A DNA stretch of 64,000 nucleotides, taken from positions 8,036,501 to 8,100,500 of the forward strand of contig JAZGTN010000003.1 in the NCBI GenBank assembly GCA_037783415.1. Direction: 5' to 3'. The DNA comes from Leptasterias polaris. Taxonomy: Eukaryota; Echinodermata; Asteroidea; Forcipulatida; Asteriidae. The notes beneath the pieces are model-generated. The model made no database searches. It worked only from the letters and a program-made list of their open reading frames with translations, and had not been told where the DNA came from. The position numbers and the translations under genes were made by a program. Shown here in pieces: positions 5,539-39,500 of this stretch (position 1 is the first letter of the stretch; the number at the start of each line of letters is the position of its first letter).

Positions 5539-5720
5539 ATATTGACAAAATAGGGAGACCGCCATCGTAGGGCTAGATAGCTCAGTTGGTAGAGCGCCGG
5601 CACGTCAATCCGGAGGTCGTTGGTTCAAATCCCGCTCTAGTCAATTCCTTGTTCAACCCAAAATCATTTAAAATTTACCCAGTCATCAGTTTCCCTTGTG
5701 GTTTATTATTTGAAAACTTG
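5539..5720 (+). repeat. SINE-A copy 2
   Basis: Best preserved copy. GATATTGACAAAATAGGGAG leads into a tRNA-like core (GGCTAGATAGCTCAGTTGG, then GGTTCAAATCCCGCTCTAG), and the tail reads CAGTTTCCCTTGTGGTTTA. The acceptor-stem halves GGCTAGA and TCTAGTC can pair with one G-U. Confidence 0.85.
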
Positions 5721-13600: not shown

Positions 13601-16600
13601 GCAAATTAAAGAAAAATAAACAAAATCAAAACGTTGGACATTTTGTCAATCGGCCACCAACGGCCAAAATATTTTGTGTATTTTTCTTCATAAATTGATA
13701 GAGAGACTACTTGGCAATAAAATAAAAATAGCGGACAAATCCCACAAGATCGCCTTAATTCTGAAAAATCGATCACTTCTAGCGGCGTAGCCATCGGAAA
13801 ACATCAAAAACCAGAGAGAAAAGGAGCGCCCTCTGTTGACAACCCATGAATAGCGGGATTAGGTTTTCTCAGAATGAAAAGCGTCGTCGCCGGAAAAAAG
13901 AATAATGCAGATTTTTATCCACAAGAGGGCGCACTTTACTTGTTACTTGACTTGCGCCCTCTTTAGAGAAAGGGAGCTTATTTTAAACAAAATTCTCGGA
14001 AAATTCATTTATGTTGACGATAAAACGTTTCCTTTTAGTCTAGAAGAGGTATGTTATCGTGTTTGATAATTTTTATAAACATTCAGACAATTTTTTGAAC
14101 TGAAGTGTGCCGATGTCCGGGTCATGTTTGGTTTTAAACCACTGTGCATTGCACATTGGTGTGTAGCATGGACAAGTGCATTAATAAGTTTATAATTTCT
14201 GACTGGCCCACCGGGCTACCTAGAAGCACGTTTGACTAGCCCGCAGCACTCTTGACTAGTGATTGTCACCGGGCTAGTGACTAAATCGAGCCCTGCACAA
14301 GTTAGCATATCGGGTCGATACCCACGAATTGCGTGCCGATACGTGCCAATTTTGGCCGATGCACAAAAAATTATAGATAATTTCACAAAAAGCCAACAAG
14401 AAAAAAACCATAAAGGCCTATAGAATGCTCCAGATTGCACAGTACGGCTTTTAAAACCAATATAAACACCAAGTACAAAACATTCCAAAGACCTTGTTTC
14501 AATTCAGAGTGCTTCAGCCAAACATCAACAAAATGGGGTTTTGAAAAAATCCTGGGTAGAACCCTGGAGAGCTTTAGATAAAGTGTCTTATATTCACCTA
14601 GGAAGATGACAACTTGTGTGAAGATGACCACGGGTCCAAATATTGCATGTAGGATGACAAGCATCGACATGATGACCATGCATGATGTGAGCGACGTCAG
14701 TTTGAGGGTTATGAAGCCAGCGGCAATCCATAGAGCTAGTAATGCAGGGCTGAGCCAGGTCTGTTGAGCCTTCTTCAACGACTTCTGGAGCTCACTCACT
14801 AAAAAGGAAAAAAAAACACACAAGCGTGTATAAAAGCAACTTCAATCAGGATCTCATATAGACACCTTGCATGTGACGTCACACTCTAAAAAAGTGCCCT
14901 CACTGAGGCCAAAAATCACCCTTACTGAGTCCAAAGGAAGCAGATCATTGGTGGATAGGTTTTCTTTGTGTGCTTGACCTCAGCGTTCCTGTAGTATTCC
15001 CCGTTATGCAAGGGGTCTATTGTCCCTCTTTTTGTTTGAACTTTAACGTTATTGCTTAACAGCTTTCATTAAACATACATGTTGTACACACTTTCTAACT
15101 GGGGATCTTCACCCAACCTTTTGTTATAGGTTTCCCCGGCTTAAATGTGTATACCTACTGTATTACCCAGTAAAACAAACATTGATTCAAATGTTGTGGA
15201 GTGTGTTCCAAAACAAAATACAAATTTATCAAAAACAGCTGGTATTTTCACAAGGTGTTTTTCTCAATGTTTTCATGTTCTTATGTTTGACACTAGGACA
15301 ATAGACCATGTTACATTTGTTTACAGAGTGGTGACCTTGTACATTCTAAAGCGTTTCCTGCCGGGCAAGATACTACACAGGCTATATGGGAAAATTTACA
15401 TTTTGTGTCATAATTTTCACATAAATTCAAAATTTACAAAAGCAACAGCTGTACAGCTTTTGAGATGTCCCCCCTTTCTTCATATAAAAAGTTGAGAAAA
15501 ATCAGACAGTGCAATCTTCACAAAACATAAGATTTGTTGTTTTCTTCCATTGATCTGTGTACAAATGTGCCTGCAGGAAGTCCAGGCTCTGTGGCTCTTT
15601 TGTAAACATGTGATGTCACAGGTCACATCGTCTATAGTGTGATCAAATAGAAAGTTACAATTTCCCAATCATTATAGAAACTGACCTTTACCCGACAAAA
15701 AAATGCACTTCAAGTCATACAAATAAAAACAATAAAACTAGGCTGAGTCATTTCAAATGATCAGGCCAGGTTTCTATAAAATGCCTTTTCCCACGGCATG
15801 AACAAATTACGATGGAGTTATTTTTGGATCAGTTCAAAAATATTCTTTGACAGTAGCAATCTGAAACCAGCTGCAGTCTGGGCTTGATTTCACGATGAGC
15901 TTACTGTAAGATAGATCTTGAGCACAAATCAGTCTTTATTGCTAAGTGAATTGTGATACATGTCATAATACAAATCAGGAAGGTGGTATTAACAACTCAT
16001 CTTTAAAATTAATTTTAGTGGCACTGTGGTTTTGAATGATAGATCCACCATGAATTGATAGGGTTATGATTATACGGTGGTGACTGCATCTATAGCCATA
16101 AAAGGAAACTGACTGGGTAACATTTAGTAAATTTTGGATTGAACAAAGAAAAATTAATTGAAGCAGGATTTGAACCTGTGACCTTCGGATTAGCGTCCCA
16201 GTGCTCCACTAACTGAGCTATGTAGCCCTTTATTGGGAGTCTCCTTATTTTTTCAATCTTTGTGTAGGTGCCATTCAGCAGTGTACATGTAAGTGCCATT
16301 CAGTCTAGGCCTGGGATACTAGTGAAATTTACTACTCGACTAGTCGCAACTCAAATAGTCGCGACTTCGACAGTAGTCGCACAGGCCTACATGTACGCCT
16401 AATTTAGTCACAGGTTCAAATCACACTCCAGTCAGTTTTTCTTTGTCAAACCCCAAATTAAATAAAATTTACCCGATTACAATTTCCCTTGCGGTTTATT
16501 ACTTGGTATTCTATTTTCATAATAATTTGTAACAAATCAGCAAAGCAATTACTAAGTAAACAAACACAAAAAACCTTAGACACTGCTTTGTTTTGTTTGA

Positions 16601-18331: not shown

Positions 18332-18340
18332 TGTCTGTGT
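18332..18340 (+). other. Left 9-bp target site duplication (TGTCTGTGT)
   Basis: It directly precedes the left terminal repeat and is identical to 32495-32503, which directly follows the right one. Confidence 0.85.
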
Positions 18341-18540
18341 TAGTCTTGATTGGCGACGTTCATTTCGCAACACGAAATACTAACCAGGCTGAAGTGAGCA
18401 CCGAATTTGGGCCCAGCACCGAATCAGGCCCAGCACCGAATTTCTCCTCAGCGCCGAATTTCAAAATTTCCGATAAAGACCGTCACTACATGTCAATAAC
18501 AACACAAAGACGGTGTGTCCTACATGCCTACTTTAAATAA

Positions 18541-21430
18541 GGTTGTGTCACCTTTAATTTATGAAATTTTAATATTTTTCTTCATAGATCTGTTTATTAT
18601 ATCCCTAGCCATAACTCCTAGGCGGAAAAATATTCTCAGGCCACTAATTAGCTCAGCCCAACTAATTAAACATTGCCTCAAATTAGCGCGATAGCCACAC
18701 ACTGTACAAAGTATGTAAAACATACCTAACTTTGACGAAAGTTGTGTCACCTTTAATTTATGAAATTTTAATTTTTATTTTCATAGATCTGTTTAGTACA
18801 TCCTTAGCCATAACTCCTAGGCGGAAAAATATTCTCAGGCCACTAATTAGCTCAGCCCAACTAATTAAACATTGTCTGAAATTAGCGCGATAGCCACACA
18901 ATGTACAAAGTATGTAAAACATACCTAACTTTGACGAAAGTTGTGTCACCTTTAATTTTTGAAAATTTAATATTTTTTTTCATAGATCTGTTTATTATAT
19001 CCCTAGCCATAACTCCTAGGCGGAAAAATATTCTCAGGCCACTACTTAGCTCAGCCCAACTAATTAAACATTGTCCTAAATTAGCGCGTGTATAGCCACA
19101 CAATGTACAAAGTATGTAAAACATACCTAACTTTGACGAAAGTTGTGTTACCTTTAATTTATGAAATTTTAATATTTGTTTTCATAGATCTGTTTAGTAC
19201 ATCCTTAGCCATAACTCCTAGGCGGAAAAATATTCTCAGGCCACTAATTAGCTCAACCCAACTAATTAAACATTGCCTCAAATTAGCACGTGTTTACATT
19301 GCTAGCCACACAATGTACAAAGTATGTAAAACATACCTAACTTTGACGAAAGTTGTGTCACCTTTAATTTATGAAATTTTAATATTTTTTTTCATAGATC
19401 TGTTTAGTACATCCTTAGCCATAACTCCTAGGCGGAAAAATATTCTCAGGCCACTAATTAACTCAGCCCAACTAATTAAACATTGTCTGAAATTAGCGCG
19501 ATAGCCACACAATGTACAAAGTATGTAAAACATACCTAACTTTGACTAAAGTTGTGTCACCTTTAAATTTTGAAAATTTAATATTTTTTTTCATAGATCT
19601 GTTTATTATATCCCTAGCCATAACTCCTAGGCGGAAAAATATTCTCAGGCCACTAATTAGCTCAGCCCAACTAATTAAACATTGTCCTAAATTAGCGCGT
19701 GTATAGCCACACAATGTACAAAGTATGTAAAACATACCTAACTTTGACGAAAGTTGTGTCACCTTTAATTTATGAAATTTTAATTTTTTTTTTCATAGAT
19801 CTGTTTAGTACATCCTTAGCCATAATTCCTAGGCGGAAAAATATTCTCAGGCCACTAATTAGCTCAGCCCAACTAATTAAACATTGCCTCAAATTAGCAC
19901 GTGTTTATATTGCTAGCCACACAATGTACAAAGTATGTAAAACATACCTAACTTTGACGAAAGTTGTGTCACCTTTAATTTATGAAATTTTAATATTTGT
20001 TTTCATAGATCTGTTTAGTACATCCTTAGCCATAACTCCTAGGCGGAAAAATATTCTCAGGCCACTAATTAGCTCAGCCCAACTAATTAAACATTGTCTG
20101 AAATTAGCGCGATAGCCACACAATGTACAAAGTATGTAAAACATACCTAACTTTGACGAAAGTTGTGTCACCTTTAATTTTTGAAAATTTAATATTTGTT
20201 TTCATAGATCTGTTTATTATATCCCTAGCCATAACTCCTAGGCGGAAAAATATTCTCAGGCCACTAATTAGCTCAGCCCAACTAATTAAACATTGCCTCA
20301 AATTAGCACGTGTTTACATTGCTAGCCACACAATGTACAAAGTATGTAAAACATACCTAACTTTGACGAAAGTTGTGTCACTTTTAATTTATGAAATTTT
20401 AATATTTTTTTTCATAGATCTGTTTATTATATCCCTAGCCATAACTCCTAGGCGGAAAAATATTCTCAGGCCACTAATTAGCTCAGCCCAACTAATTAAA
20501 CATTGTCCTAAATTAGCGCGTGTATAGCCACACAATGTACAAAGTATGTAAAACATACCTAACTTTGACGAAAGTTGTGTCACCTTTAATTTATGAAATT
20601 TTAATATTTTTTTTCATAGATCTGTTTAGTACATCCTTAGCCATAACTCCTAGGCGGAAAAATATTCTCAGGCCACTAATTAGCTCAGCCCAACTAATTA
20701 AACATTGTCTGAAATTAGCGCGATAGCCACACAATACAAAGTATGTAAAACATACCTAACTTTGACTAAAGTTGTGTCACCTTTAAATTTTGAAAATTTA
20801 ATATTTTTTTTCATAGATCTGTTTATTATATCCCTAGCCATAACTCCTAGGCGGAAAAATATTCTCAGGCCACTAATTAGCTCAGCCCAACTAATTAAAC
20901 ATTGCCTCAAATTAGCACGTGTTTATATTGCTAGCCACACAATGTACAAAGTATGTAAAACATACCTAACTTTGACGAAAGTTGTGTCACCTTTAATTTA
21001 TGAAATTTTAATATTTTTTTTCATAGATCTGTTTATTATATCCCTAGCCATAACTCCTAGGCGGAAAAATATTCTCAGGCCACTACTTAGCTCAGCCCAA
21101 CTAATTAAACATTGTCCTAAATTAGCGCGTGTATAGCCACACAATGTACAAAGTATGTAAAACATACCTAACTTTGACGAAAGTTGTGTTACCTTTAATT
21201 TATGAAATTTTAATATTTTTTTTCATAGATCTGTTTAGTACATCCTTAGCCATAACTCCTAGGCGGAAAAATATTCTCAGGTTACTAATGAGCTCAGCCC
21301 AACTAATTAAACATTGTCCTAAATTAGCGCGTGTATAGCCACACAATGTACAAAGTATGTAAAACATACCTAACTTTGACGAAAGTTGTGTCACCTTTAA
21401 GTTATGAAATTTTAATATTTTTTTGAGCTT
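18541..21430 (+). repeat. Left arm satellite array, ~14 copies of ~200 bp
   Basis: CACCTTTAA landmarks recur near 18550, 18749, 18948, 19150, 19360 and on to 21391 at steps of 198-211 bp. Each unit has TAACTCCTAGGCGGAAAAAT, TTAGCTCAGCCCAACTAATT and CCACACAATGTACAAAGTAT. Length variants come from two forms of the linker (GCGCGATAGCC, or CACGTGTTTACATTGCTAGC). The last copy breaks off in AATTTTAATATT. Confidence 0.95.
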
Positions 21431-21870
21431 TTCTCTTGAACTTTTCATGGTGCTTTTCTCTTGAACTTTTCACGGTGCTTTTCTCTTTCTCTTGAACTTT
21501 TCATGGTGCTTTTCTCTTTCTCTTAAACTTTTGACGGTGCTTTTCTTTTTCTCTTTCTCTTGAACTTTTCACGGTGCTTTTCTCTTGAGCTTTTCACGGT
21601 GCTTTTCTCTTTCTCTTTCTCTTGAACTTTTTACGGTGCTTTTCTCTTGAGCTTTTCACGGTGATTTTCTCTTGAGCTTTTCACGGTGCTTTTCTCTTTC
21701 TCTTGAACTTTTCATGGTGCTTTTCTCTTTCTCTTAAACTTTTCACGGTGCTTTTCTCTTTCTCTTTCTCTTTCTCTTGAACTTTTGCACGGTGCTTTTC
21801 TCTTGAGCTTTTCACGGTGCTTTTTTCTTTCTCTTTCTCTTGAACTTTTCACAGTGCTTTTCTCTTGAGC
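21430..21870 (-). repeat. Inner array of ~25-bp units, inverted orientation
   Basis: CTTTTCTCTTGA and ACTTTTCACGGTG repeat with (TTTCTC)n expansions. It is the reverse complement of the large array at 22600-28090, so the inverted symmetry of the arms extends into the core, though only over 440 bp on this side. Confidence 0.9.
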
Positions 21871-22005
21871 TTTTTGAAGCGTTTTGAAGCGTTTTGAAGC
21901 GTTTTGAAGCGTTTTGAAGCGTTTTGAAGCGTGTTACTATTTTAGAAAGTTACAATTTTAGAAAGTTACTATTTTAGAAAGTTACTATTTTAGAAAGTTA
22001 CTAAG
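21868..22005. repeat. Two short tandem arrays (10-bp and 16-bp units)
   Basis: About six copies of TTTTGAAGCG at 21870-21930 are followed by about four copies of GTTACTATTTTAGAAA at 21932-22003. They form the border between the inverted inner array and the 12-bp array. Confidence 0.9.
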
Positions 22006-22007
22006 AA

Positions 22008-22598
22008 AACTACCGTGAAAACTACCGTGAAAACTACCGTGAAAACCACCGTGAAAACTACCGTGAAAAGTTGCGTGAAAACTACCGTGAAAAATACCGT
22101 GAAAACTACCGTGAAAACCACCGTGAAAACTACCGTGAAAACTACCGTGAAAACTACCGTGAAAACTACCGTGAAAACTACCGTGAAAACCACCGTGAAA
22201 AGTTGCGTGAAAACTACCGTGAAAACCACCGTGAAAACTACCGTGAAAACTACCGTGAAATCTACCGTGAAAAGTTGCGTGAAAACTACCGTGAAAACCA
22301 CCGTGAAAACCACCGTGAAAACTACCGTGAAAACTACTGTGAAAACCACCGTGAAAAGTTGCGTGAAAACTACCGTGAAAACCACCGTGAAAACTACCGT
22401 GAAAACCACCGTGAAAACTACCGTGAAAAGTTGCGTGAAAACCACCGTGAAAACTACCGTGAAAACTACCGTGAAAACTACCGTGAAAACCACCGTGAAA
22501 ACTACCGTGAAAACTACCGTGAAAACTACCGTGAAAAGTTGCGTGAAAACTACCGTGAAAAGTTGCGTGAAAACTACCGTGAAAAATACCGTGAAAAG
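22008..22598 (+). repeat. 12-bp satellite array, ~49 units
   Basis: The unit GTGAAAACTACC alternates with GTGAAAACCACC, and about every 5-8 units with GTGAAAAGTTGC. Because 12 is a multiple of three and the unit lacks stops, open frames run through it on both strands, giving KTTV, YREN and FTVV peptide repeats. These are by-products. Confidence 0.95.
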
Positions 22599-25500
22599 CT
22601 CAAGAGAAAAGCACCCTGTAAGAGAAAGCTCAAGAGAAAAGCAACGTTAAAAGTTCAAGAAAAAGAGAAAAGCACCGTGAAAAGAGAAAGAGAAAAGCAA
22701 CGTGAAAAGTTTAAGAGAAAGAGAAAAGCACCATGAAAAGTTCAAGAGAAAGAGAAAAGCACCGTGAAAACCTCAAGAGAAAAGCACCGTGAAAATCTCA
22801 AGAGAAAAGCACCGTGAAAAGTTCAAGAGAGAGAAAAGCACCATGAAAAGTTCAAGAGAAAGAGAAAAGCACTGTGAAAAGCTCAAGAGAAAAGCACCGT
22901 GAAAAGCTCAAGAGAAAAGCACCGTGAAAAGTTCAAGAGAAAAGCTCAAAAAAAAAGCACCGTGAAAAGTTCAAGAGAAAAGCTCAAGGGAAAAGCAACG
23001 TGAAAAGCTCAAGAGAAAAGCACCGTGAAAAGTTCAAGAAAAAGAGAAAAGCACCGTGAAAAGTTCAAGAGAAAAGCACCATGAAAAGTTCAAGAGAAAA
23101 GCTCAAAAAAAAAGCACCGTGAAAAGTTCAAGAGAAAAGCTCAAGGGAAAAGCAACGTGAAAAGCTCAAGAGAAAAGCACCGTGAAAAGTTCAAGAGAAA
23201 GAGAAAAGCACCGTGAAAAGTTTAAGAAAAAGAGAAAAGCACCGTGAAAAGTTCAAGAGAAAAGCACCATGAAAAGTTCAAGAGAAAGAGAAAAGCACCG
23301 TGAAAAGTTCAAGAGAAAAGCTCAAGAGAAAAGCACTGTGAAAAGCTCAAGAGAAAAGCACCGTGAAAAGCTCAAGAGAAAAGCACCGTGAAAAGCTCAA
23401 GAAAAAAGCACCGTGAAAAGTTCAAGAGAAAAGCTCAAGAGAAAAGCACCGTGAAAAGTTCAAGAGAAAAGCTCAAGGGAAAAGCAACATGAAAAGCTCA
23501 AGAGAAAAGCACCGTGAAAAGTTCAAGAGAAAAGCACCGTGAAAAGTTCAAGAGAAAGAAAAAAGCACCGTGAAAAGTTCAAGAGAAAGAGAAAGAGAAA
23601 GAGAAAAGCAACGTGAAAAGTTTAAGAGATAGAGAAAAGCACCATGAAAAGTTCAAGAGAAAGAGAAAAGCACCATGAAAAGTTCAAGAGAAAGAGAAAA
23701 GCACCGTGAAAACCTCAAGAGAAAAGCACCGTGAAAATCTCAAGAGAAAAGCACCGTGAAAAGAGAAAGAGAAAAGCAACGTGAAAAGTTTAAGAAAAAG
23801 AAAAAAGCACCGTGAAAAGTTCAAGAGAAAGAGAAAGAGAAAGAGAAAAGCAACGTGAAAAGTTTAAGAGATAGAGAAAAGCACCATGAAAAGTTCAAGA
23901 GAAAGAGAAAAGCACCATGAAAAGTTCAAGAGAAAGAGAAAAGCACCATGAAAAGTTCAAGAGAAAGAGAAAAGCACTGTGAAAAGCTCAAGAGAAAAGC
24001 ACCGTGAAAAGTTTAAGAGAAAAGCACCGTGAAAAGTTCTAGAGAAAAGCTCAAGAGAAAAGCATCGTAAAAAAAGCTCAAGAGAAAAGCACCGTGAAAA
24101 GTTCAAGAGAAAAGCTCAAAAAAAAGCACCGTGAAAAGTTCAAGAGAAAAGCTCAAAGGAAAAGCAACGTGAAAAGCTCAAGAGAAAAGCACCGTGAAAA
24201 GTTCAAGAGAAAGAGAAAAGCACCGTGAAAAGTTTAAGAAAAAGAGAAAAGCACCGTGAAAAGTTCAAGAGAAAAGCTCAAGAGAAAAGCACTGTGAAAA
24301 GCTCAAGAGAAAAGCACCGTGAAAAGCTCAAGAGAAAAGCAACGTTAAAAGCACAAGAGAAAAGCACCGTGAAAAGTTCAAGAGAAAGAGAAAGAGAAAG
24401 AGAAAAGCACCGTGAAAAGTTTAAGAAAAAGAGAAAAGCCCCGTGAAAAGAGAAAGAGAAAAGCAACGTGAAAAGTTTAAGAGAAAGAGAAAAGCACCAT
24501 GAAAAGTTCAAGAGAAAGAGAAAAGCACCGTGAAAACCTCAAGAGAAAAGCACCGTGAAAATCTCAAGAGAAAAGCACCGTGAAAAGTTCAAGAGAGAGA
24601 AAAGCACCATGAAAAGTTCAAGAGAAAGAGAAAAGCACTGTGAAAAGCTCAAGAGAAAAGCACCGTGAAAAGCTCAAGAGAAAAGCACCGTGAAAAGTTC
24701 AAGAGAAAAGCTCAAAAAAAAAGCACCGTGAAAAGTTCAAGAGAAAAGCTCAAGGGAAAAGCAACGTGAAAAGCTCAAGAGAAAAGCACCGTGAAAAGTT
24801 CAAGAGAAAGAGAAAAGCACCGTGAACAGTTTAAGAAAAAGAGAAAAGCCCCGTGAAAAGTTCAAGAGAAAAGCACCATGAAAAGTTCAAGAGAAAGAGA
24901 AAAGCACCGTGAAAAGTTCAAGAGAAAAGCTCAAGAGAAAAGCACTGTGAAAAGCTCAAGAGAAAAGCACCGTGAAAAGCTCAAGAGAAAAGCACCGTGA
25001 AAAGCTCAAGAGAAAAGCACCGTGAAAAGTTCAAGAGAAAAGCTCAAAAAAAAAGCACCGTGAAAAGTTCAAGAGAAAAGCTCAAGGGAAAAGCAACGTG
25101 AAAAGCTCAAGAGAAAAGCACCGTGAAAAGTTCAAGAGAAAGAGAAAAGCACCGTGAAAAGTTTAAGAAAAAGAGAAACGCACCGTGAAAAGTTCAAGAG
25201 AAAAGCACCATGAAAAGTTCAAGAGAAAGAGAAAAGCACCGTGAAAAGTTCAAGAGAAAAGCTCAAGAGAAAAGCACTGTGAAAAGCTCAAGAGAAAAGC
25301 ACCGTGAAAAGCTCAAGAGAAAAGCACCGTGAAAAGCTCAAGGAAAAAGCACCGTGAAAAGTTCAAGAGAAAAGCTCAAGAGAAAAGCACCGTGAAAAGC
25401 TCAAGAAAAAAGCACCGTGAAAAGTTCAAGAGAAAAGCTCAAGAGAAAAGCACCGTGAAAAGTTCAAGAGAAAAGCTCAAGGGAAAAGCAACGTGAAAAG

Positions 25501-28090
25501 CTCAAAAGAAAAGCACCGTGAAAAGTTCAAGAGAAAAGCACCGTGAAAAGTTCAAGAGAAAGAAAAAAGCACCGTGAAAAGTTTAAGAAAAAGAGAAAAA
25601 GCACCGTGAAAAGTTAAAGAGAAAGAGAAAGAGAAAGAGAAAAGCAACGTGAAAAGTTTAAGAGAAAGAGAAAAGCACCATGAAAAGTACAAAGAGAAAG
25701 AGAAAAGCACAATGAAAAGTTCAAGAGAAAGAGAAAAGCACCATGAAAACCTCAAGAGAAAAGCACCGTGAAAATCTCAAGAGAAAAGCACCGTGAAAAG
25801 AGAAAGAGAAAAGCAACGTGAAAAGTTTAAGAGAAAGAGAAAAGCACCATGAAAAGTTCAAGAGAAAGAGAAAAGCACTGTGAAAACCTCAAGAGAAAAG
25901 CACCGTGAAAATCTCAAGAGAAAAGCACCGTGAAAAGTTCAAGAGAGAGAAAAGCACCATGAAAAGTTCAAGAGAAAGAGAAAAGCACTGTGAAAAGCTC
26001 AAGAGAAAAGCACCGTGAAAAGTTTAAGAGAAAAGCACCGTGAAAAGTTCAAGAGAAAAGCACCGTGAAAAGTTCAAGAGAAAGAGAAAAGCACCATGAA
26101 AAGTTCAAGAGAAAGAGAAAAGCACCGTGAAAAGTTCAAGAGAAAAGCTCTAGAGAAAAGCACTGTGAAAAGCTCAAGAGAAAAGCACCGTGAAAAGCTC
26201 AAGAGAAAAGCACCGTGAAAAGCTCAAGAGAAAAGCACCGTGAAAAGTTCAAGAGAAAAGCTCAAGAAAAAAGCACCGTGAAAAGTTCAAGAGAAAAGCT
26301 CAAGAGAAAAGTACTGTGAAAAGCTCAAGAGAAAAGCACCGTGAAAAGCTCAAGAGAAAAGCACCGTGAAAAGCTCAAGAAAAAAGCACCGTGAAAAGTT
26401 CAAGAGAAAAGCTCAAGAGAAAAGCACCGTGAAAAGTTCAAGAGAAAAGCTCAAGAAAAAAGCACCGTGAAAAGTTCAAGAGAAAGAAAAAAGCACCGTG
26501 AAAAGTTTAAGAAAAAGAGAAAAAGCACCGTGAAAAGTTCAAGAGAAAGAGAAAGAGAAAGAGAAAAGCAACGTGAAAAGTTTAAGAGAAAGAGAAAAGC
26601 ACCATGAAAAGTACAAAGAGAAAGAGAAAAGCACAATGAAAAGTTCAAGAGAAAGAGAAAAGCACCGTGAAAACCTCAAGAGAAAAGCACCGTGAAAATC
26701 TCAAGAGAAAAGCACCGTGAAAAGAGAAAGAGAAAAGCAACGTGAAAAGTTTAAGAGAAAGAGAAAAGCACCATGAAAAGTTTAAGAAAAAGAGAAAAAG
26801 CACCGTGAAAAGTTCAAGAGAAAGAGAAAGAGAAAGAGAAAAGCAACGTGAAAAGTTTAAGAGAAAGAGAAAAGCACCATGAAAAGTACAAAGAGAAAGA
26901 GAAAAGCACAATGAAAAGTTCAAGAGAAAGAGAAAAGCACCGTGAAAACCTCAAGAGAAAAGCACCGTGAAAATCTCAAGAGAAAAGCACCGTGAAAAGA
27001 GAAAGAGAAAAGCAACGTGAAAAGTTTAAGAGAAAGAGAAAAGCACCATGAAAAGTTCAAGAGAAAGAGAAAAGCACTGTGAAAATCTCAAGAGAAAAGC
27101 ACCGTGAAAAGTTCAAGAGAGAGAAAAGCACCATGAAAAGTTCAAGAGAAAGAGAAAAGCACTGTGAAAAGCTCAAGAGAAAAGCACCGTGAAAAGTTTA
27201 AGAGAAAAGCACCGTGAAAAGTTCAAGAGAAAAGCACCGTGAAAAGTTCAAGAGAAAGAGAAAAGCACCATGAAAAGTTCAAGAGAAAGAGAAAAGCACC
27301 GTGAAAAGTTCAAGAGAAAAGCTCTAGAGAAAAGCACTGTGAAAAGCTCAAGAGAAAAGCACCGTGAAAAGCTCAAGAGAAAAGCACCGTGAAAAGCTCA
27401 AGAGAAAAGCACCGTGAAAAGTTCAAGAGAAAAGCTCAAGAAAAAAGCACCGTGAAAAGTTCAAGAGAAAAGCTCAAGAGAAAAGTACTGTGAAAAGCTC
27501 AAGAGAAAAGCACCGTGAAAAGCTCAAGAGAAAAGCACCGTGAAAAGCTCAAGAAAAAAGCACCGTGAAAAGTTCAAGAGAAAAGCTCAAGAGAAAAGCA
27601 CCGTGAAAAGTTCAAGAGAAAAGCTCAAGAAAAAAGCACCGTGAAAAGTTCAAGAGAAAAGCTCAAGAGAAAAGCACTGTGAAAAGCTCAAGAGAAAAGC
27701 ACCGTGAAAAGCTCAAGAGAAAAGCACCGTGAAAAGCTCAAGAAAAAAGCACCGTGAAAAGTTCAAGAGAAAAGCTCAAGAGAAAAGCACCGTGAAAAGT
27801 TCAAGAGAAAAGCTCAAGGGAAAAGCAACGTGAAAAGCTCAAGAGAAAAGCACCGTGAAAAGTTCAAGAGAAAAGCACCGTGAAAAGTTCAAGAGAAAGA
27901 AAAAAGCACCGTGAAAAGTTTAAGAAAAAGAGAAAAGCACCGTGAAAAGTTCAAGAGAAAGAGAAAGAGAAAGAGAAAAGCAACATGAAAAGTTCAAGAG
28001 AAAGAGAAAAGCACCATGAAAAGTTCAAGAGAAAGAGAAAAGCACCATGAAAACCTCAAGAGAAAAGCACCGTGAAAATCTCAAGAGAAA
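22598..28090 (+). repeat. Long array of ~25-bp GA-rich units, 5.5 kb
   Basis: Units combine CACCGTGAAAAG with TTCAAGAGAAAAG or CTCAAGAGAAAAG and (AGAGAA)n expansions. Larger blocks recur: a block of about 310-510 bp at 26451-26760 is repeated after it, and 22740-23600 resembles 24480-25550. This shows higher-order duplication. A strong purine bias (A and G on this strand) holds for the whole array. Confidence 0.95.
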
Positions 28091-28557
28091 ATTAGTAAAT
28101 TGGACTTTGAAATTTTAAGTTTGAAAAACTTGCGGAATAAAAGTACCGCCAACTTATATTCTTTCCCCGTTAAATTTACTCAATTATATCGAGGCAACAA
28201 ACTTGCCTTAATAAAATTAAGCTGATTGAACAAAACACTTGTTGAGCTTAATTTACTTCCAATTAAAAGTAGTGCCTACTTCGAGCCTTAAGTTAATTCA
28301 ACTTGCCGTATATTCGAGTAATAGTAATTGCATCGAAATATGTCATCCCAACTTATTTCAAATCAGTAAAGTTAACTTGACAAAGAGAGGAACACATACT
28401 GTATAAGTAAATTGGACTTTGAGATTTTAAGTTCAAAGAACTTGGGATTAAAAGTACCGCCAACTTGTATTCCTTCCCCATTCAATTTACTCAATTATAT
28501 CGAGGCAACAAACTTGCCTTAATAAAATTAAGTTAATTGAACAAAACATTTTTTTGA
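28090..28557. repeat. ~155-bp direct repeat pair inside foldback element
   Basis: 28094-28250 and 28405-28557 share AGTAAATTGGACTTTGA, AAAAGTACCGCCAACTT, AATTATATCGAGGCAACAAA and CTTGCCTTAATAAAATTAAG at about 85-90% by eye. The stretch between is AT-rich with related motifs. Confidence 0.8.
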
Positions 28558-29480
28558 GTGTGGGGGTCTCTGGTGACCTTCCTACGGCCCTTGCGACCGA
28601 GTTACCGGCTCTGCGGGTGGATCGCGCCGCTTCCACCGGTGGTCGCCCTCCGGTCCACGGTGACTCCTGGCGACTACGGGAAGTCCCACTCCTAGGAAGG
28701 GAAAACCAGCGGGCACGGAGGCGATCTTCCCGTGGCCCACGGCGCATTTCCTCCCAGACCCGCTTCGGCGGCGTTGATCCTCGGTCTATCTGGCTGGGCC
28801 TTTCTCGGAGAAAATAACCACCGGGCGGAGAGAAAACCACGCCGTGGCAGACGGCTGAAAATCGCCTGCACGCGCTCCCGGAGAAAATCCGAAAAGTCCT
28901 CGGACTTTGACCAAATCTGGCCCAGTAAACGGACAAATAAGCTAGTTCTCCGAGCTTCGGGAAAATGGCTCGAGTTCAGAGGCAAAAAGTCCTCAAGAGA
29001 TACGTAAGGCTGTCGCCGGCACCCGCTGCGTTCCGAGAACGCCTCCTCTTCGGAGCAGAGGCATTCGTGGGACTCTAGACCAACGAGGGCCTTCGTGACC
29101 TAGTCAAAGGGCCGATTTTGGCCCATAGTCCCGCGGAAGTGTAGGGGTAAGAGGTCGCCCCCAACCCTAGGGATGTTGGGGCTACTATAGGGGGTAGGGT
29201 CCTCTCGGCTCCGCTGAAACATAAAAAAGGGAAAACCTCATAGCAACGTGCACGAATCGGTCCTCTCGGCTCCGCTGAAACATAAAATAAAATAAAAAAT
29301 TAAAAAAACCTATAGAATCGTACACGAATTGGCTTTCCATGACGGGCGAGAGCGGAGCCGGCGGTCTCACGGAGCGCAAACCTACCCCAGGGGCGGCGAT
29401 CGAGGGAACTAGAGTTGGGTTTTATACCTACGGGAGCGGTCCGGGCCGGCGGTTCACCGGGACCGGAGACGCTTCCCCTT
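28555..29480. other. GC-rich block of unknown origin inside the foldback element
   Basis: About 0.9 kb, far richer in G+C and CpG than anything around it, with sharp borders. It contains a short tandem repeat: GGTCCTCTCGGCTCCGCTGA followed by AACATAAAA occurs at 29209 and 29258. Possible overlapping frames of up to 149 residues have no family features. It may be host DNA captured by the element, for example ribosomal spacer, but I do not recognise it. Confidence 0.5.
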
Positions 29481-30340
29481 TTTAATCCTGAAGTAATAAA
29501 TGGTCATATACACAGGAAGACGGTATCAAACTCAAATTACGGATTGCTTTGTATCGTTGGGAAATGCATCCCCATTGTTTTAAACCACATACCTGACAGT
29601 TTTCAGATGTGTGGCCACCTATTTTTTTGAAAAGTTTCACAGGATGGTTTTGCTTTATGTCTGTGTTGATAACACTGATTTGGAATGACATGGATTCGTT
29701 ACAAAACAATATTCAACCATCTTTTATAGTGCATACTGAGTTGATTAACATATGAAAATGCGTATGATTGGATGCTTCCAGACGGCACATTGAATACCAA
29801 AGCATTGAGGTGTCGGGTATAACTATAAGTATGAAATAACATAAAAGAAAGGTTTAACCTTCCAATACTACACAATGTTTCAAATTTACAAAAGATTAAT
29901 GTAAAACGTAAATCACAAGAAACCTAAATCAATGCTGTATTATTTTGTTAATGTCTTTACATGGTTTTCTCATGTTGAGTGTCGATAGAGCCTCTATGGA
30001 AAAGAAAGGAAATATCCAAACATTGTGTTTAATTTTCAATTAAAAGTGTTGTCCGTTAGTGCTGTCTTTTTTCATTAAGCAATACGATCAAATTGACATT
30101 GATGGATATGAGATTACAGCTATACGAAATGTTAAATACTCATCACAAGGTGAAAAACAGAATGTCATAAACACCACTAACGTTATGTAAATGGCGATAT
30201 ACGATAATGACAGATAAATTAAAGGTTGTGAAAGCGAACACAATTTATATATTGGTGCACACTTATTGTAATAAAGGGAAACAAATCATCTGTGCTGTGG
30301 TGATTAACTGACATTTGATAAAAAGCATTTCCAAAATATT
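29480..30340. other. AT-rich unique block inside foldback element; no gene seen
   Basis: About 860 bp with no repeat structure, no long frame and no similarity I can recognise. It separates the GC-rich block from the right satellite arm. Confidence 0.5.
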
Positions 30341-32160
30341 AAAATTTCATAATTTAAAGGTGACACACTTGCTAAAATGAGAAAATCTTTAATTAGTTGG
30401 GCTGAGCTAAAATAGTGGCTTGAAAATATTTTTCCGCCTAGGAGTTATGGCTAGGGATGTACTAAACAGATCTATGAAGAAAAATATTAAAATTTCATAA
30501 ATTAAAGGTGACACAAATTTCGTCAAAGTTAGGTATGTTTTACATACTTTGTACATTGTGTGGCTATACACGCGCTAATTTAGGACAATGTTTAATTAGT
30601 TGGGCTGAGCTCATTAGTGACATGAGAATATTTTTCCGCCTAGGAGTTATGGCTAGGGATGTACTAAACAGATCTATGAAGAAAAATATTAAAATTTCAT
30701 AAATTAAAGGAGACACAAAATTCGTCAAAGTTAGGTATGTTTTACATACTTTGTACATTGTGTGGCTATAAATACACGCGCTAATTTAGGACAATGTTTA
30801 ATTAGTTGGGCTGAGCTCATTAGTGACCTGAGAATATTTTTCCGCCTAGGAGTTATGGCTAGGGATGTACTAAGCAGATCTATGAAGAAAAATATTAAAA
30901 TTTCATAACTTAAAGGTGACACAAATTTCGTCAAAGTTAGGTATGTTTTACATACTTTGTACATTGTGTGGCTATACACGCGCTAATTTAGGACAATGTT
31001 TAATTAGTTGGGCTGAGCTCATTAGTATCCTGAGAATATTTTTCCGCCTAGGAGTTATGGCTAGGAATATAATAAACAGATCTATGAAGAAAAATATTAA
31101 AATTTCATAAATTAAAGGTGACACAACTTTCGTCAAAGTTAGGTATGTTTTACATACTTTGTACATTGTGTGGCTATACACGCGCTAATTTAGGACAATG
31201 TTTAATTAGTTGGACTGAGCTAATTAGTAGTCTGAGAATATTTTTCCGCCTAGGAGTTATGGCTAGGGATGTACTAAACAGATCTATGAAAAAAAATATT
31301 AAAATTTCGTAACTTAAAGGTGACACAACTTTTGTCAAAGTTAGGTATGTTTTACATACTTTGTACATTGTGTGGCTAGCAATGTAAACACGTGCTAATT
31401 TGAGGCAATGTTTAATTAGTTGGGCTGAGCTAATTAGTAGCCTGAGAATATTTTTCCGCCTAGGAGTTTTGGCTAGGGATATAATAAACAGATCTATGAA
31501 AAAAAATATTAAAATTTCATAAATTAAAGATGACACAATTTTCGTCAAAGTTAGGTATGTTTTACATACCTTTTTGTGTGTGGCTATACACGCGCTAATT
31601 TAGGACAATGTTTAATTAGTTGGGCTGAGCTCATTAGTGACCTGAGAATATTTTTCCACCTAGGAGTTATGGCTAGGGATGTACTAAACAGATCTATGAA
31701 GAAAAATATTAAAATTTCATAAATTAAAGGTGACACAAATTTCGTCAAAGTTATGTATGTTTTACATACTTTGTACATTGTGTGGCTCTACACGCGCTAA
31801 TTTAGGACAATGTTTAATTAGTTGGGCTGAGCTCATTAGTAAACTGAGAATATTTTTCCGCCTAGGAGTTATGGCTAGGGATGTACTAAACAGATCTATG
31901 AAAAAAAATATTAAAATTTCATAAATTAAAGGTGACACAAATTTCGTCAAAGTTAGGTATGTTTTACATACTTTGTACATTGTGTGGCTAGCGGCTAGCA
32001 ATGTAAACACGTGCTAATTTGAGGCAATGTTTAATTAGTTGGGCTGAGCTAATTAGTTGCCTGAGAATATTTTCCGCTTAGGAGATATAGCCAGGGATGT
32101 ACCAAACAGATCTATGAAGAAAAATATGAAAATTTCATAAATTAAAGGTGACACAACCTT
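30340..32160 (-). repeat. Right arm satellite array, ~9 inverted copies of ~200 bp
   Basis: The same unit in opposite orientation, with GGTGACAC landmarks near 30355, 30503, 30704, 30912 and on to 32140. The innermost copy breaks off at the same internal point (AATATTAAAATT) as in the left arm. One partial unit (30355-30503) is internally deleted. Confidence 0.95.
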
Positions 32161-32494
32161 ATTTAAAGTAGGCATGTAGGACACACCGTCTTTGTGTTGT
32201 TATTGACATGAGTGACGGTCTTTATCGGAATTTTTGAAATTCGGTGCTGAGGAGAACTTCGGTGCTGGGCCTGATTCGGTGCTGGGCCCAAATTCGGTGC
32301 TCACTTCAGCCTGGTAAATAACCACTGTCCGCAACACGAATTACTGGAGAAGAGATATCTGTATTACACGAACATCTGTTTTTGATCCAGATTTATAGAC
32401 TTGCCCAGTCCTTCTGAGTCAGCCCGACCAACCAGTCAATGTAGCGCCCTCTACCGGTGGCTAAAACAAAAAACAGCGTCGCCAATCAAGACTA
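32160..32494 (-). repeat. Right terminal domain of the foldback element
   Basis: 32160-32318 is the inverted copy of 18382-18540 with only a handful of differences. 32343-32476 has no counterpart on the left, where the same place is about 20 bp, so the left end carries a ~130-bp deletion or the right an insertion. Confidence 0.8.
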
Positions 32495-32503
32495 TGTCTG
32501 TGT
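32495..32503 (+). other. Right 9-bp target site duplication (TGTCTGTGT)
   Basis: Identical to 18332-18340. The flank continues as a short (GT)n run, so the border could slip by a base or two, but the full nine bases match. Confidence 0.85.
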
Positions 32504-32586: not shown

Positions 32587-33348
32587 GTGAGTACAATCAT
32601 AGAGAAAGGACCTTTCTCTATGGTACAATTAAATGCCTGATCAGCCTCCGGTAGAACGAACCTCATAGTCATATAGTTCTAGGTCTAGTTCTGCTGGGTC
32701 TCCCCCCCCCCCCCCCCGCCCACACTCCTGATCCTTCGGATTCCTATTTGTTTTGCTTTATAAACATGTTTTTGTGTAATTCTACCTCCAGGACCATGCA
32801 CATGATGATGCATGGAGGTTTAACTTTATGTATGATAATGAATGGGACGACGCCAAGAAACAAAAACAAAAGTCCAAACAATTGGAGAACAAAGGCCAAG
32901 GGAAATCCTCGTTTAGCATGTCTTTGTGGGGTGTGTTCTTATTCCTCCATGGTTTAACAATAACATGCTGTATTACTATTTGTTGTTTTATAGATTGATG
33001 ACTATCATTATCACTATCAGTATCACTCACAACTAACATTAGGACCTCATTTATTTTTTAGTCATTAGTACATGCTGGGACTCTACCCCCCCCCCCCCCC
33101 CCCACCCCCACCCCACCCCCACCCCCACCCCCCACCCCCAAACAAAAAAAACCCAGAAAGAATTCAACTTGTTGAGTATCCTTGCAATGATCGCAGTTAG
33201 CTTTAGACAAAAATGTATTATTTTCCCTTGATAAAATGTTTTCATTATTGAAAACAGCTAGATGTAAAAGTCACTACAATTTACAAATTAACTTATTTAA
33301 AGTACACAATTTTATTTTTATCCAATCCTTCATCTGCGCTGCATGTAG

Positions 33349-33519: not shown

Positions 33520-36500
33520 GTAAGTATCCAGTATATATGGTATACAAGAACAAAGGAGATGGAGGGAGGAAAGCAGCAAGTTTGTTTGTTTGTTTAGATG
33601 TCTTTCCGTCAGCCAACCCCTCTCTCATACAAACATTGGTTTACGGTCTACTGATTGTGGTTCAGTAACTAGACAACAACACTTATTTAAGTCATTGTGA
33701 AATCAGAGGTTAGCTTGGTAGGATTCGAACCCACAACCTTGTGGTTGCAAGTCCTGCTGTCTAGCCACTACACCAAGGTGACACTTTGTAACAGAAACAA
33801 ACAAACAAACAAACAAACGAACAATTTGTTTTTTCTGGGGACAATTTCACAAAGCAATTGGATTCATCTTCAAGATGAGTTGTCAGTGTTGTCATATAAA
33901 TTTGCAATGTGACATAACACTTTGCTTAGCAACTAAAGATCAATACATAGTTAAGATCACTGTTATCTCTGTGTGATATTGAGCCCAGGATTATCAGAAG
34001 GTCGTTCCTCTGTAGGCCCAGCTTCCTTCCTCCATGGTAGGCCTAAGTTAGCTGACTGCTTAAAGGAAAGCATTGTTAACTTCTGATTGTAGGTAGCACG
34101 GTCAGATAAAAATAGTATGATACAAACATTTGTAAAGTGCCATCAATCTATGACCAAACATATTCTGAGGCGCTGGGAAAAAAAAATTAAGCAAAGCATT
34201 TTGAACAAGTTACTTTAATTATCAAAGTATGCAGGGGAAGTTATTAACCCTCCTACTGTTCGCAACATTTTCAAGTGAGTTGACCAACCATTTCATTCAT
34301 TCATTCATTAAAGGTTTATTAAAAAATCACATGGCAACCAAAGGCTGAATTGAGTGATACAGGGGAACATTCCACATACAATGTAAAAACTTTAAAACAA
34401 AACAATTATTAAAAAGAAACATTCTATAAATTACATGTGCAATGGGGAATTGCACACATACACAAATATTTATATACATCATAATACGTTATTGAAAATT
34501 TACAATAACAAAATTACCTGAGGGGGGAACCAATACAAAGTTGCTAAGAAGAAAAGAGTTATGATTCGGCATTGATCAATTTTACATAAAAAGGAATAGG
34601 GCTGTTGAGGTATCTCTTCGTTAGCCATTTAGGGGTCGTAAGTTTACTTGAGTTCCTCAGAACCCGGTTGTGTTGTTCCTCTCTGGTTGGTGGAAGCCAT
34701 TGACGGAATTTCTCTGATTTCAAGAGTGAATTGGCAAATGTGTGGCATAACTTGTCTCTACGAGACTGGAGGGTTGGTATATTGCACTTTTCTAGAGCGT
34801 CTTGATAGCTGGAATGGTTTTTACCTAGAATAATCTTAAATGCACGTTTTTGGATTCTCTCTAACGAGACAGACTGCTTATCATTGAGACCCGGGTGCCA
34901 GACAGGTGCTGCATATTCTGCTAGCGGGCGTATGTACCCGACATAAACTGTGACAAGGTCCTCCTCCGAAAGACCAAACTTTTTTAGCACTTTCAACATG
35001 TAAAGTCGTCCATTGGGTCGTTTCAACATGTCGTTCACTTGAAAATCCCATTTTAGGTCAGAACTGATGTGTACACCCAGGATTTTGACACAGTCTGTCT
35101 CGCGGAGAGGTTCATTACACAAGGATAATGGTTCCATATGAGGTTTAGATTTCATGAAGGAAACATTCATAACCATGCACTTTGTAGGATTTAACTGCAT
35201 GTGATTATTGTTTGTCCACCTTTCGAGTTCAATTAGTTCCTGTTGCATATTGGTATTAGCATTATCCTTGTTTGTCCTTTCAATAAGGGTCATGTCATCC
35301 ACATATTTCAATGTGACTATGTTGTTAGAGATGGCTACATCATTACTCATGCCCAAGAAACCTATGGGACCAAATTTTGTTCCCTGTGGGACCCCTGCTT
35401 TCAGAAGTTTAGAGTCTGAGAGCGTACCTCTATATTTGACACTTTGTACCCGGTTTGTTAAAAAGCTGCAAAGCCAGGGGATTAGGCAAGATGTTGCTCC
35501 CATTAACAGTAGTTTGTTTATGACTATGTTGTGATCAACTCGATCAAATGCTTTGCTGTAATCGGTGATCACAACAGTAGATACACTTCCTGACTTTTCA
35601 GCATGCTTGCACAAGGTATCTACCAAGTGAACGAGATAGTGGTTAGTAGACCTGCCGGGGCGGTTTCCATATTGATTTGAGTCCAGGTTGAGTTCAATGT
35701 CATCGAATAACCACCTCACGATGTAACCTTCAGCAAGCTTGGCGAAATGGTCTGTCAATGAGACCGGGCGCAACTTTTGCCAAGTTGCCGGTTTCGTCTT
35801 GGGCAGAGGAATTACTGTGGCGCGTTTCCATTGATCTGGTACAGAGCCCTGCTGGTACGAAGCATTAAGTCTTGCTGGCACACTATCTGGACCCCCTGCT
35901 TTATTTGGTTTCACTTTCTGAAGATCTCTGTAAACTTCCCACGGATGCAATGTAGGGCATGGAGCTGGTGCAGGTAAATATGCAGGCAGATTTGTTGTGT
36001 ATTTGTTGTGTATGGTGGCACAACTGTGCACAGAACTAACTGTGTACTGTGTACATGCATTCCCTCATGGTATCATATTGCAAGGCTGGCATACATGTAG
36101 CTTATCTATCATTCAAAACCACAGTGAATGGTATTGAATGGTCAGACAGCAAGAGGGTTAAAGAGCACATTAAAGTGTGATTTGCAAATTGCACCTTTAA
36201 AAAACAAGTGATTCTGTAGCTCAGATAGGCCCACATAATGGAAATAAGTTCCATAGTTTGGGAGCAGATACTGAACAGGCAAGATTGCCAGAACGAGTCT
36301 GTTTGTAGATCGAAGATTGCGACTTGGAGTTAGGCCCTATAGGGTGAGAGAAGTTCCTGGATGTACAGTGGTGCCTTGTTATTCATGGCTTCCCCATGGG
36401 AGCAATATAATTTGGAAATCAATTCGTTAACGGACTGGAAGCCAGATGTGTCCCTTTTAAAAACACTCAAATAATAAACCACAAGGGGCACCCCCCGAAC

Positions 36501-39500
36501 AAAGATATTGACAAAATAGGGAGACCGCTAACATAGGGCTAGATAGCTCAGTTGGTAGAGCGCCGGCACGTTAAACCGGAGGTCGTTGGTTCAAATCCCG
36601 CTCTAGTCAATTTATCTTTGTTCAACCCAAAATCTTTTAAAAACACTGATGGGTGATTAAGGTGGAGTCCTTGGAGGAGGAGTCTAGCAGAGGGATTGAA
36701 CCCCGGAACTAAAACTCATACACTCATGAGCTCGATTGCATTGTAATCCTGTAGGATTCAAGGCCTATAGAGGAGTTTGCTGTTAGTCACATTGCAAATT
36801 GCATCAGAGTGGATCATGAACTGGACAACATGAATGTACTCAAGAACCTTCTGTGTCAAGATGAACAATGTAAGTTTTTTTAAATGAAAAAATTAAGTTA
36901 GTGGCCTGACGTTTCGACCCTAGCAGAGTCTTTCTCGAAGGCTAAATGACAACACAACACACAACACACAACATACATGCATACAGGAGTAACACGAGCA
37001 TGCAAGTGGAAATACATGAATAGAGAGAGTGGAGAGAGAAGCAGAAAGCATTCAGAAAAAAAGAATATGATTATTTATTTCATCAACTGAAGTGTCAATT
37101 TTATGCTAAAGGCAGGGTTTTTGGTCTGGTAATTTTTTAAAGACCAGTATCCTCACCTGGTGTATTCGAACATATGCATAAAATAACGAACGTTTGAAAA
37201 TTTGGACTCAATTTGTCATCAAAGTTACAAGAAAATAATGAAAGAAACAAGATCCTTGTTGCATAGAATTAATTGCGTTCAGATGCCTGAGAAAGTCTTC
37301 AAGCCTGAAAACTTCCTCAGATTCAAATTTGTGTGTGAAAAACTACCACTTTCTCTAAAACAACATTACTTATCAACAGCTCTTTAGTGCTCCTTACCAT
37401 GTAAGTTTTTATCGCCATTAACTTGTGGAGTATTAACGAAAAATATACACTGTATCCCAGTAAAAATGTATGCAAAAATGAGAGATTCAAAAGAAAACTT
37501 TTCCAATCAAGGATCACTGACCAGAAATATGTACATTTTCTGTTAAATTAACTGCTTTCAACATGGTTACTGTCTTTTGCTTTTAGTGTTATTTAAATAC
37601 TCCCATTTTTACAGTAAACTGTACCTTATACTCCTCAAAACGCACCTTTTTAAACACCCAACTGGAAAGTAATCAAAATAATTTTTTAGGTTTATATAAA
37701 GAATTTATATGTTTATATAAAGAATTTATTAAAAAAAAATCTTTCTTAAAGGCACTGTACACGTTTGGTAGTTACTCAAAACAAATATTAGCTTAAAAAC
37801 TTACTTGGTAACGAGCAACGGAGAGCTGTTGATAGTATAAATCATTGTGAGAAACGACTCCCTCTGAAATAACCTAGTTTTTGAGAAAGAGGTAATTTCT
37901 CACTAAAATAATAAAAGACTTCTGGCCAGAAGCCTTTTATTCCTATCTGAAAGCACACTAATTTGTACAACAAGGGTGTTTTTTCTTTCATCATTTTCTT
38001 GCAACTTCGATGACCAATTGAGCCCAAATTTTCACAGGTTTGTTATTTTATGCATATGTTGGGATACACCAAGTGAGAATGCTGGTCTTTGACAATTACC
38101 AAACGTGTTCAGTGCCTTTAACTTTGTGATTGTTATCTTTTTATAAAAATGTCCCCGTGTATTGATTTCTTGTGTTTTTATGCGTTTGAATTCTGGTATT
38201 GTTATTTTTTTGGGGGGTGGGGGTAACCGTTCTTTTAAAAACATGTAAAGCGCTCAAAGGCCTTCGGGCATTGGGAGCTATATTAAGTGTTTTAGTAATA
38301 TTATTATTATTGTTATTATTATTATTGTTCTTATTATTATTGTTATTGTTGCATTACTATTTCAGGTGATGTGCCTGAAGAGATTGCCGGTATCGTTGTT
38401 TTGTATTGCTCCGTGGGTTTCAGGTCATCCATACTGGCAGAAAAACTGCAGAAAGCGATCAAATCTGATCCACCATACAAGGGTAAGTCCTGTAAAGTCA
38501 CACATGAAAACAATCATTTTCACATCAGGGGAGAAAACCTTGTACGTGTTTTTGTCATGACGTTGTATCACCTCGGAACGAGGCCCCAAAATGTTTTGTT
38601 TGTCCTCTGCATTGCCTGTCCCTTTTTAGTCCTGCAGAGTTACAGGAAAGACTTTTACCCAACCTGTTCTCTTGTCTGAATTTTTCTTGTCTATACTTTC
38701 CAGTGGGTTTTAATAATGTGTTTGTAGAAATGATTAAAAAAAAAATATATATCTTGACACAATAGGGTTTATGTAAACACCTGTTATACATAGCAAGATA
38801 CTAAGTTTGTGCAATTTTAGTGTTCAGTGCTCCTTAATATTCAATTTTTATATTTGTAGTAATCGTGTCGTGGCCGAGCGGATAAGAGCACTGGATCCAA
38901 GCTCTGGTGTTTCTGTGTGGGTTCGAGTCCCGGTCGTGACACTTGTGTCCTTGAGCAAGACACTTAACTATAATTGCTTCTCATCACCCAGGGGTAAAAT
39001 GGGTACCTGTGAGGGCAGAGATGGTTCTTGTGATTGATTTAGCTTGATGCGCTACATATTTGGCAGCACAGGCTGTATACTCCCAAGGGAGCTGAGATGG
39101 TTTAAGGAATGAAATAAAATGGCCCAGTGACCAGGGGTAATAATGTTGAAGCGCCATGAGCGTCACTGAGTGACGGACCTGAGCGCTATATAAGAAGCCA
39201 CTATTATTATTATTATTATTAACAGCCTTAAAATTTAAAAAGGCGATGAATTATGAGTAGTGAAACTTAACCCTGCTTTTTACACTGTTTTCTTTCTACT
39301 TCTAAAAAAACTGAGAATAAAGTTAAAGGTTTTTTTTTCAAAGGAGATTTTACAATTCCCTCTACAAAACCAAGGTCTTTAGAAAGTATTGGAAGAAAAA
39401 AATGGTTAAAGAAATATATATATATATATATAATGCAAATAGAAGTAATGGCTTCACATTTCAACCCAAGCAGCGTCTCTTCTGGAGTCGGAGAGAAGTC

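Follow-up and report, generated by a model that had tools for sequence, protein, structure and literature searches.

Positions 18341-32494 of a 64,000-nt stretch of the Leptasterias polaris genome (C3:8036501-8100500, hereafter the window, meaning the whole stretch analysed; the genome amounts to 630 Mb in 334 contigs) consist of two mobile elements, a short and common miniature inverted-repeat transposable element (MITE) being split by a larger, palindromic foldback element with satellite arms. The foldback belongs to a real and young family, of which other copies frame long macrosatellite arrays. A single explanation that combines nested insertion in the MITE, a young foldback family producing 8-9-bp target duplications and composite units bearing satellite arrays is advanced here with good confidence. 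In this explanation, a MITE of ~207-238 bp with 18-bp terminal repeats would first have entered a TGTCTGTGT site, duplicating 9 bp, and the non-autonomous foldback, 18383-32315, would later have landed within it. The foldback arms, being satellite arrays, may be lengthened and shortened by unequal exchange, and a transposase, probably of the Mutator/FB type, would act on the element in trans. Any two outward-facing foldback ends would be usable together, so that copies lying within a macrosatellite array could exit with the intervening array as a composite unit of 40-157 kb, for which the case appears strong at C6:6933052-6973093 and three further loci are candidates.

The counts from genome searches given below are lower bounds: the best 40 candidates were scored out of 125 for the end query from 18341, 117 for that from 18383, 1152 for the MITE, 582 for the macrosatellite piece, and 122 and 131 for the two array-junction searches. 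For the core piece, all 40 of 40 candidates were scored.

A MITE Interrupted by a Foldback Element

The sequence TAGTCTTGATTGGCGACG stands inverted at 18341 and 32494, identical at 18/18 bp, and TGTCTGTGT flanks the pair on both sides, at 18332-18340 and at 32495-32503, as a preliminary description of this DNA had reported. The 18-bp match alone is not decisive, because another inverted match, of 23 bp, lies outside the arms at distances of 2.4 and 3.8 kb; the ends are real because of the adjoining 9-bp duplication and the copies found elsewhere. The outer right segment of ~180 bp is a separate high-copy repeat, and among the best 40 loci scored, window included, the other 39 match it at 89-97% identity (41 rows; one locus gave two). 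Eight of these 39 loci were read with their flanks, and all of them are complete MITEs of 207-238 bp without a foldback. The full TAGTCTTGATTGGCGACG end is found in seven of the eight, the outer end of L056 being altered, and CGTCGCCAATCAAGACTA terminates every one. Target duplications are perfect (9/9) at L058 and L060 and nearly so at L057 and L059 (8/9), L061 (9/10) and L055 (8/10). In the window, one end of the split MITE is the 42-bp segment 18341-18382 (minus strand), which has the 18-bp repeat outermost and aligns with AAATGAACGTCGCCAATCAAGACTA, found at the end of other copies, and the other part is the 179-bp segment 32316-32494 (minus strand). The perfect TGTCTGTGT duplication records the insertion of the MITE, whose other copies show such ends with duplications of their own.

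The preliminary description had assigned the 18-bp repeats to the satellite-armed element and, from the perfect duplication, had considered that element intact and recently moved. Neither assignment survives, and these features do not show the foldback to be intact or a recent arrival: the repeats belong to the MITE, with 39 other foldback ends starting farther inward, and the duplication is likewise the MITE's, the foldback's own flanks scoring just 5. For the window itself, the narrower lesson is that a perfect terminal repeat accompanied by a duplication may come from another and older element that surrounds the insertion.

An origin of the outer right segment from a long-terminal-repeat element or a long interspersed nuclear element (LINE), suggested by a TATA-like stretch, was dropped, as the eight copies read are complete MITEs. 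A C-rich tract of CCCCCA-like repeats (33086-33140) lies immediately to the right of the MITE.

Boundaries of the Foldback Element

The foldback spans 18383-32315, that is, 13,933 bp, with the termini ACCAGG...CCTGGT, and this boundary is set where it is because other ends match only from ACCAGG inward. With a 200-base query starting at 18341, none of the 39 other ends scored matches before query base 39-45; the genome search proposed in the preliminary description for copies with the same ends succeeded for the inner ends (ACCAGG). With a query starting at 18383, the match starts at base 1 in 39 of the 40 rows scored, window included, and at base 3 in the remaining one, and the other 39 ends are 99% identical to the window. 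Beyond ACCAGG the copies differ in sequence, except at array junctions and at two duplicated flanks. The left terminal module (18383-18541, plus strand), which begins ACCAGGCTGAAGTGAGCACC, is delimited by these scored ends, and comparison with other copies delimits the right one (32157-32315, minus strand), which ends in CCTGGT.

Ten end pairs were scored for target duplications, of which three are perfect (C92, the 24-kb C45 copy and the 40-kb C6 unit described below), four are imperfect and three show none (the window, C49 and a 1.0-kb C45 copy). The 9.3-kb foldback at C92 is flanked by CCATCCTCT at 9/9 positions and the 24-kb foldback at C45 by a perfect 8-bp duplication, TTTATCAG, and the 9.2-kb foldback at C257 has the pair CTGCAGATT/CTGCAAGATT, a duplication with one indel. 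The near-repeat CGCAACACGAAWTACT beside both ends of the window foldback was considered as a target duplication and rejected, since it is explained by a near-repeat inside the MITE that L054, L059 and L060 also have.

Anatomy of the Foldback Family

Ten complete copies were read, the window's included, chosen since both of their ends were among the best 40 hits of the query from 18341. They range from 6.9 to 13.9 kb in length, carry 3 to 27 satellite units per arm, and have terminal modules 97.5-100% like the left module of the window. In all ten, a variable core is enclosed by long inverted terminal repeats that consist for the most part of tandem repeats, and the family is multi-copy, its members sharing their termini at unrelated sites and some of them having target duplications; both traits are those of the foldback structural class. 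A 401-base core query gave 33 near-full matches among its 40 candidates, 31 of them (window included) being 98-100% identical and two 92-93%.

In the window copy, tandem-repeat analysis shows that the left satellite arm (18542-21424, plus strand) contains 14.2 units of ~202 bp and the right arm (30384-32156, minus strand) 8.7 inverted units, which agrees with the inverted ~200-bp arrays of about 14 and 9 copies noticed at the outset. The ~6.6 kb of simple arrays attributed to the core is equally present, between about 21427 and 28065, and is made up of a CT-rich array of 25-31-bp period followed by short 10-bp and 16-bp arrays (21427-22003), a 12-bp array of 49 copies (GAAAACTACCGT; 22005-22597) and a GA-rich array of ~5.4 kb with mixed periods of 25-63 bp (22632-28065). 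Comparison of copies then distinguishes a core segment absent from the nine other complete copies (28066-28561) and the family core (28562-30383), which is 97-98% identical in those nine and has no Pfam domain in the open reading frames (ORFs) scanned. A probe for the 12-bp array matched none of the nine other complete copies, and the GA array was not found by tandem-repeat scans of two of them (the scan of L015 covering part of its copy). Of four 61-base samples from the 24-kb C45 copy, one resembles the GA array at 74%, two resemble the core and one has no match. Neither the GA-rich array nor the 12-bp array is a constant component of the architecture.

The satellite units are equally similar within an arm, between arms and between elements (0.935 in each case; 221 units), same-arm pairs in the window copy being slightly closer (0.953). 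In the left arm of the window, the nearest units often lie 611 bp, or three units, apart, a pattern that points to local amplification. The variation in arm length, from 3 to 27 units, is in keeping with the early proposal that the arms grow and shrink as satellites.

Macrosatellite Arrays Framed by Foldback Ends

Eight of the ten complete foldbacks adjoin, by one or both ends, macrosatellite arrays with a unit of 1,786 or 2,143 bp, and no duplication spans any one of the eight by itself, as the composite reading expects. A genome search with a 401-base piece of the array gave 582 candidates. The interiors of the arrays read have GGCTCTATATGCATGTG in 34 cases, and foldback ends stand exactly at CTCTATATG at nine ends, seven of them full-length junctions of one side and two of the other; such junctions are what one 9-bp-duplicating insertion in the array, followed by copying, would leave.

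The strongest case is a 40-kb unit on C6, in which complete foldbacks at 6933052-6943684 and 6966191-6973093 frame 22.5 kb of array (four of four inner samples). The inner flanks are CTCTATATG and the outer flanks form a perfect 9-bp duplication, TTGACAAGT, meaning that C6:6933052-6973093 presents two foldbacks with a duplication outside the pair and none across each member, as a composite foldback should. In a comparison of each of the 24 left ends with each of the 19 right ends, every one of the seven further perfect matches was a CTCTATATG/CATATAGAG array junction, and the matching flanks speak for correct linkage of this unit. Three larger units have an outer-flank score of 7, a value reached by 3 of 279 mismatched pairs: C153:4772171-4815189 (43 kb, array in 4/4 samples), C6:9747852-9857218 (109 kb, 3/3) and C22:820095-977611 (157 kb, 8/8). 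The two arms of the 109-kb unit have one satellite-array junction in common, in inverted orientation, which makes it probable that one arm is a copy of the other. The window foldback is not itself a composite unit.

By analogy, the array-bearing units look like composite foldback transposons that move satellite arrays in the way that Ising's transposing element (TE) moved genes. That foldback ends make entire macrosatellite arrays transposable, with units of 40-157 kb being cut from one satellite locus and pasted elsewhere with a 9-bp duplication so as to seed new satellite loci in a single step, is judged probable, if only slightly so. It is a long-standing question how long satellite arrays come to occupy new chromosomal sites; the known proposals invoke circles, rolling replication or short arrays carried by Helitrons. 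Array-bearing units as long as 157 kb, lying between transposon ends and having outer 9-mers that match or nearly match, make a direct cut-and-paste route testable.

Some further observations concern these arrays and their surroundings. The 2,143-bp unit, seen in L020, is apparently the 1,786-bp unit plus a palindromic, MITE-like insert of ~357 bp, and because the longer array unit carries it, the insert multiplied together with the array. At C78:1318496-1411486, a foldback end, a core, an array match (1348879) and a second core may form another composite unit. L017 (C179:943000-952250) and L019 (C179:605000-612991) share ~8 kb of left flank at 99.7% identity, and the foldback structures that adjoin it differ, which may reflect segmental duplication or the presence of both haplotypes in a single contig. 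Finally, the foldback ends at L045 (C6:10187120) and L046 (C6:10035712) are 151 kb apart, with outer flanks 99.8% identical over 459 bases.

Alternative Explanations

Several findings weigh against the combined reading of nested insertion and composite units. Single-copy moves of the foldback are directly proven by just three copies (C92, C45 and C257), because the eight complete foldbacks that touch arrays have no individual duplication; the 8-10-bp duplications predicted for other loci are indeed seen at some copies (8-9 bp), whereas none is found at C49 (score 1) or at the 1.0-kb C45 copy (score 3). Two of the eight MITE copies, L054 and L056, have duplications of only 6/9. The flanks of the window foldback, AAATACTA and AAATAACCA, make a poor duplication, with a score of 5 that 24 of 279 mismatched pairs also attain. 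As for the composite units, three of the four duplications are imperfect, and the 8-bp repeated terminus of the 109-kb unit was trimmed by hand before scoring. Two complete foldbacks are shown for the 40-kb C6 unit only; since no core match was found in the 43- or 109-kb unit and only one in the 157-kb unit, what frames these three is foldback ends or arms, not a pair of complete foldbacks. In addition, array-rich regions and the lengths of their arrays may be misassembled.

The last points would also suit an account with no composite transposons at all, in which foldbacks entered satellite arrays independently and the arrays were then rearranged, or misassembled, beside unique DNA. Besides the imperfect duplications and the two units lacking a core and one having a single core, this account can draw on a second macrosatellite boundary, between CCACC and TCTCTATATG, observed away from foldback ends in five of six small reads (L090 and L092-L095, on C179 and C181), one case on C181 lying near the contig end. 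It has more difficulty with the perfect 9-bp duplication across 40 kb at C6, with the score of 7 at three more units when 3 of 279 mismatched pairs attain it, and with the same array junction recurring at nine foldback ends, and is regarded as rather unlikely.

A different doubt concerns the way in which the foldback reached the MITE, as recombination or repair (template switching, or gene conversion between arms) in place of cut-and-paste would account for the absence of a clean duplication. The poorly matching flanks of the window foldback are what this route predicts, and the arms, being as alike between elements as within them throughout the genome (0.935), would make exchange easy. The MITE is broken near GGACAGTATTTCGTG, a stretch shared by L054 and L059 and almost matched in L060; the other five copies lack it. 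Relative to L054 and L059, the window has four extra bases between GGACAGT and ATTT, and its 42-bp MITE part lacks ~20 bases, lying inward of it, that all eight MITE copies have. Against this stands that both break points, as judged from L054 and L059, fall within a few bases of each other around the MITE's AGTATTT, as insertion would give, and that the foldback family transposes elsewhere. The repair route is accordingly given about one chance in four, and the window foldback either lost its duplication or arrived by repair.

The notion of one intact 14.15-kb element, in which the outer 42 and 179 bp would be unique terminal domains of a foldback that moved whole and made the TGTCTGTGT duplication, has in its favour that the whole lies between 18-bp ends flanked by a perfect 9-bp duplication, but it is already refuted as a family structure and highly improbable for the window, given that the outer segments occur as complete MITEs without a foldback at the eight loci read (of 39 other loci scored), most with their own duplications, that 39 other scored foldback ends lack the outer segments, and that the perfectly duplicated foldbacks at C92 and C45 end at ACCAGG/CCTGGT.

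Transposase Search and Superfamily Placement

No transposase was found in the foldback copies read, in line with the non-autonomous nature initially ascribed to the element, which is now seen as a member of a multi-copy family. None of seven ORFs from the core regions of two copies had a Pfam match at E <= 0.01, and the longest open frame inside the foldback copies read, of 262 amino acids, is satellite read-through. There was no Rfam match in the window foldback or in L011, L020 and L023, and ARAGORN found no transfer RNA (tRNA) in the latter three.

Target duplications of the Mutator superfamily, or Mutator-like elements (MULEs), measure 8-11 bp (PMC6446971). The perfect foldback duplications CCATCCTCT and TTGACAAGT (9 bp) and TTTATCAG (8 bp) lie within this range, and their length suggests Mutator membership. 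Galileo and the P superfamily produce 7-bp target duplications, which the perfect duplications of 8-9 bp seen here do not match. The TU elements of sea urchins have an outer arm domain of ~15-bp repeats, and the arms here are built of ~202-bp units, the terminal module having an 18-bp repeat in just 3.7 copies. Helitrons and Helentrons do not fit the inverted arms and 8-9-bp duplications: Helentrons are another class of element, not known to have inverted arms or target duplications, and those of oysters carry short internal arrays, not a bracketed macrosatellite.

Comparison with Known Systems

The preliminary description had presented the architecture as one not seen described before, but satellite-armed foldbacks with 8-10-bp duplications are known from Tetris (PMC4079207) and Tm1 (PMC3169594), and large DNA moving between foldbacks as one unit is known from Ising's TE. 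Tetris of Drosophila virilis is described as a foldback with an AT-rich arm tandem repeat of ~220 bp and 8-10-bp duplications, for which that account reports no transposase and whose arm repeats expand into satellite arrays (PMC4079207). As described, the arrays of Tetris are its own arm repeat, whereas here a second macrosatellite, of 1.8/2.1 kb, lies between foldback ends. Tm1, a Mutator/foldback element of root-knot nematodes, has composite terminal repeats with tandem motifs and mostly 9-bp duplications; duplications of 8-10 bp were recorded in 45 of 53 complete elements, and copies without one were explained by crossovers (PMC3169594). It differs in its 13-15-bp arm motifs, its asymmetric 7-bp outer motifs and the transposase encoded by some members (PMC3169594).

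FB4 of Drosophila is likewise non-autonomous, with long terminal repeats and 9-10-bp duplications, features on account of which it was placed with the MULEs, and it carries other DNA (Ssk), although this cargo is a gene-sized piece and not a satellite array (PMC8277862). Ising's TE, also of Drosophila, resembles the units reported here in that large foldback-framed segments transpose together (PMC6431247); the cargo here is instead a satellite array, at four places in one genome. Rehavkus combines 9-bp duplications with a minisatellite near one terminal repeat and encodes a PHD-finger transposase (PMC6446971); the combination is also present here, with satellites in both arms, and no transposase was found in the copies read. 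The satellites carried by oyster Helentrons are a further instance of a mobile element dispersing satellite-like repeats (PMC7492417). In the literature searched, which took in few subscription papers, no description was found of foldback-framed satellite arrays with target duplications.

Neighbouring Features in the Window

Close to the foldback, a 501-codon open frame at 34562-36064 (minus strand) contains a reverse transcriptase domain, probably of LINE type. Its protein has 450 matches; among the 120 listed, the best reaches 72%, and the best that carry an organism name are from Branchiostoma, at 47% or less. Matches to the Rfam tRNA family occur at 181-253, 5571-5643 and 36537-36609 (plus strand) and at 16155-16227 (minus strand), one of them barely above threshold; these four could be genes or tRNA-derived short interspersed nuclear elements. 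At 52907-53413 (minus strand), there is an exon-like frame with a thrombospondin type 1 domain.

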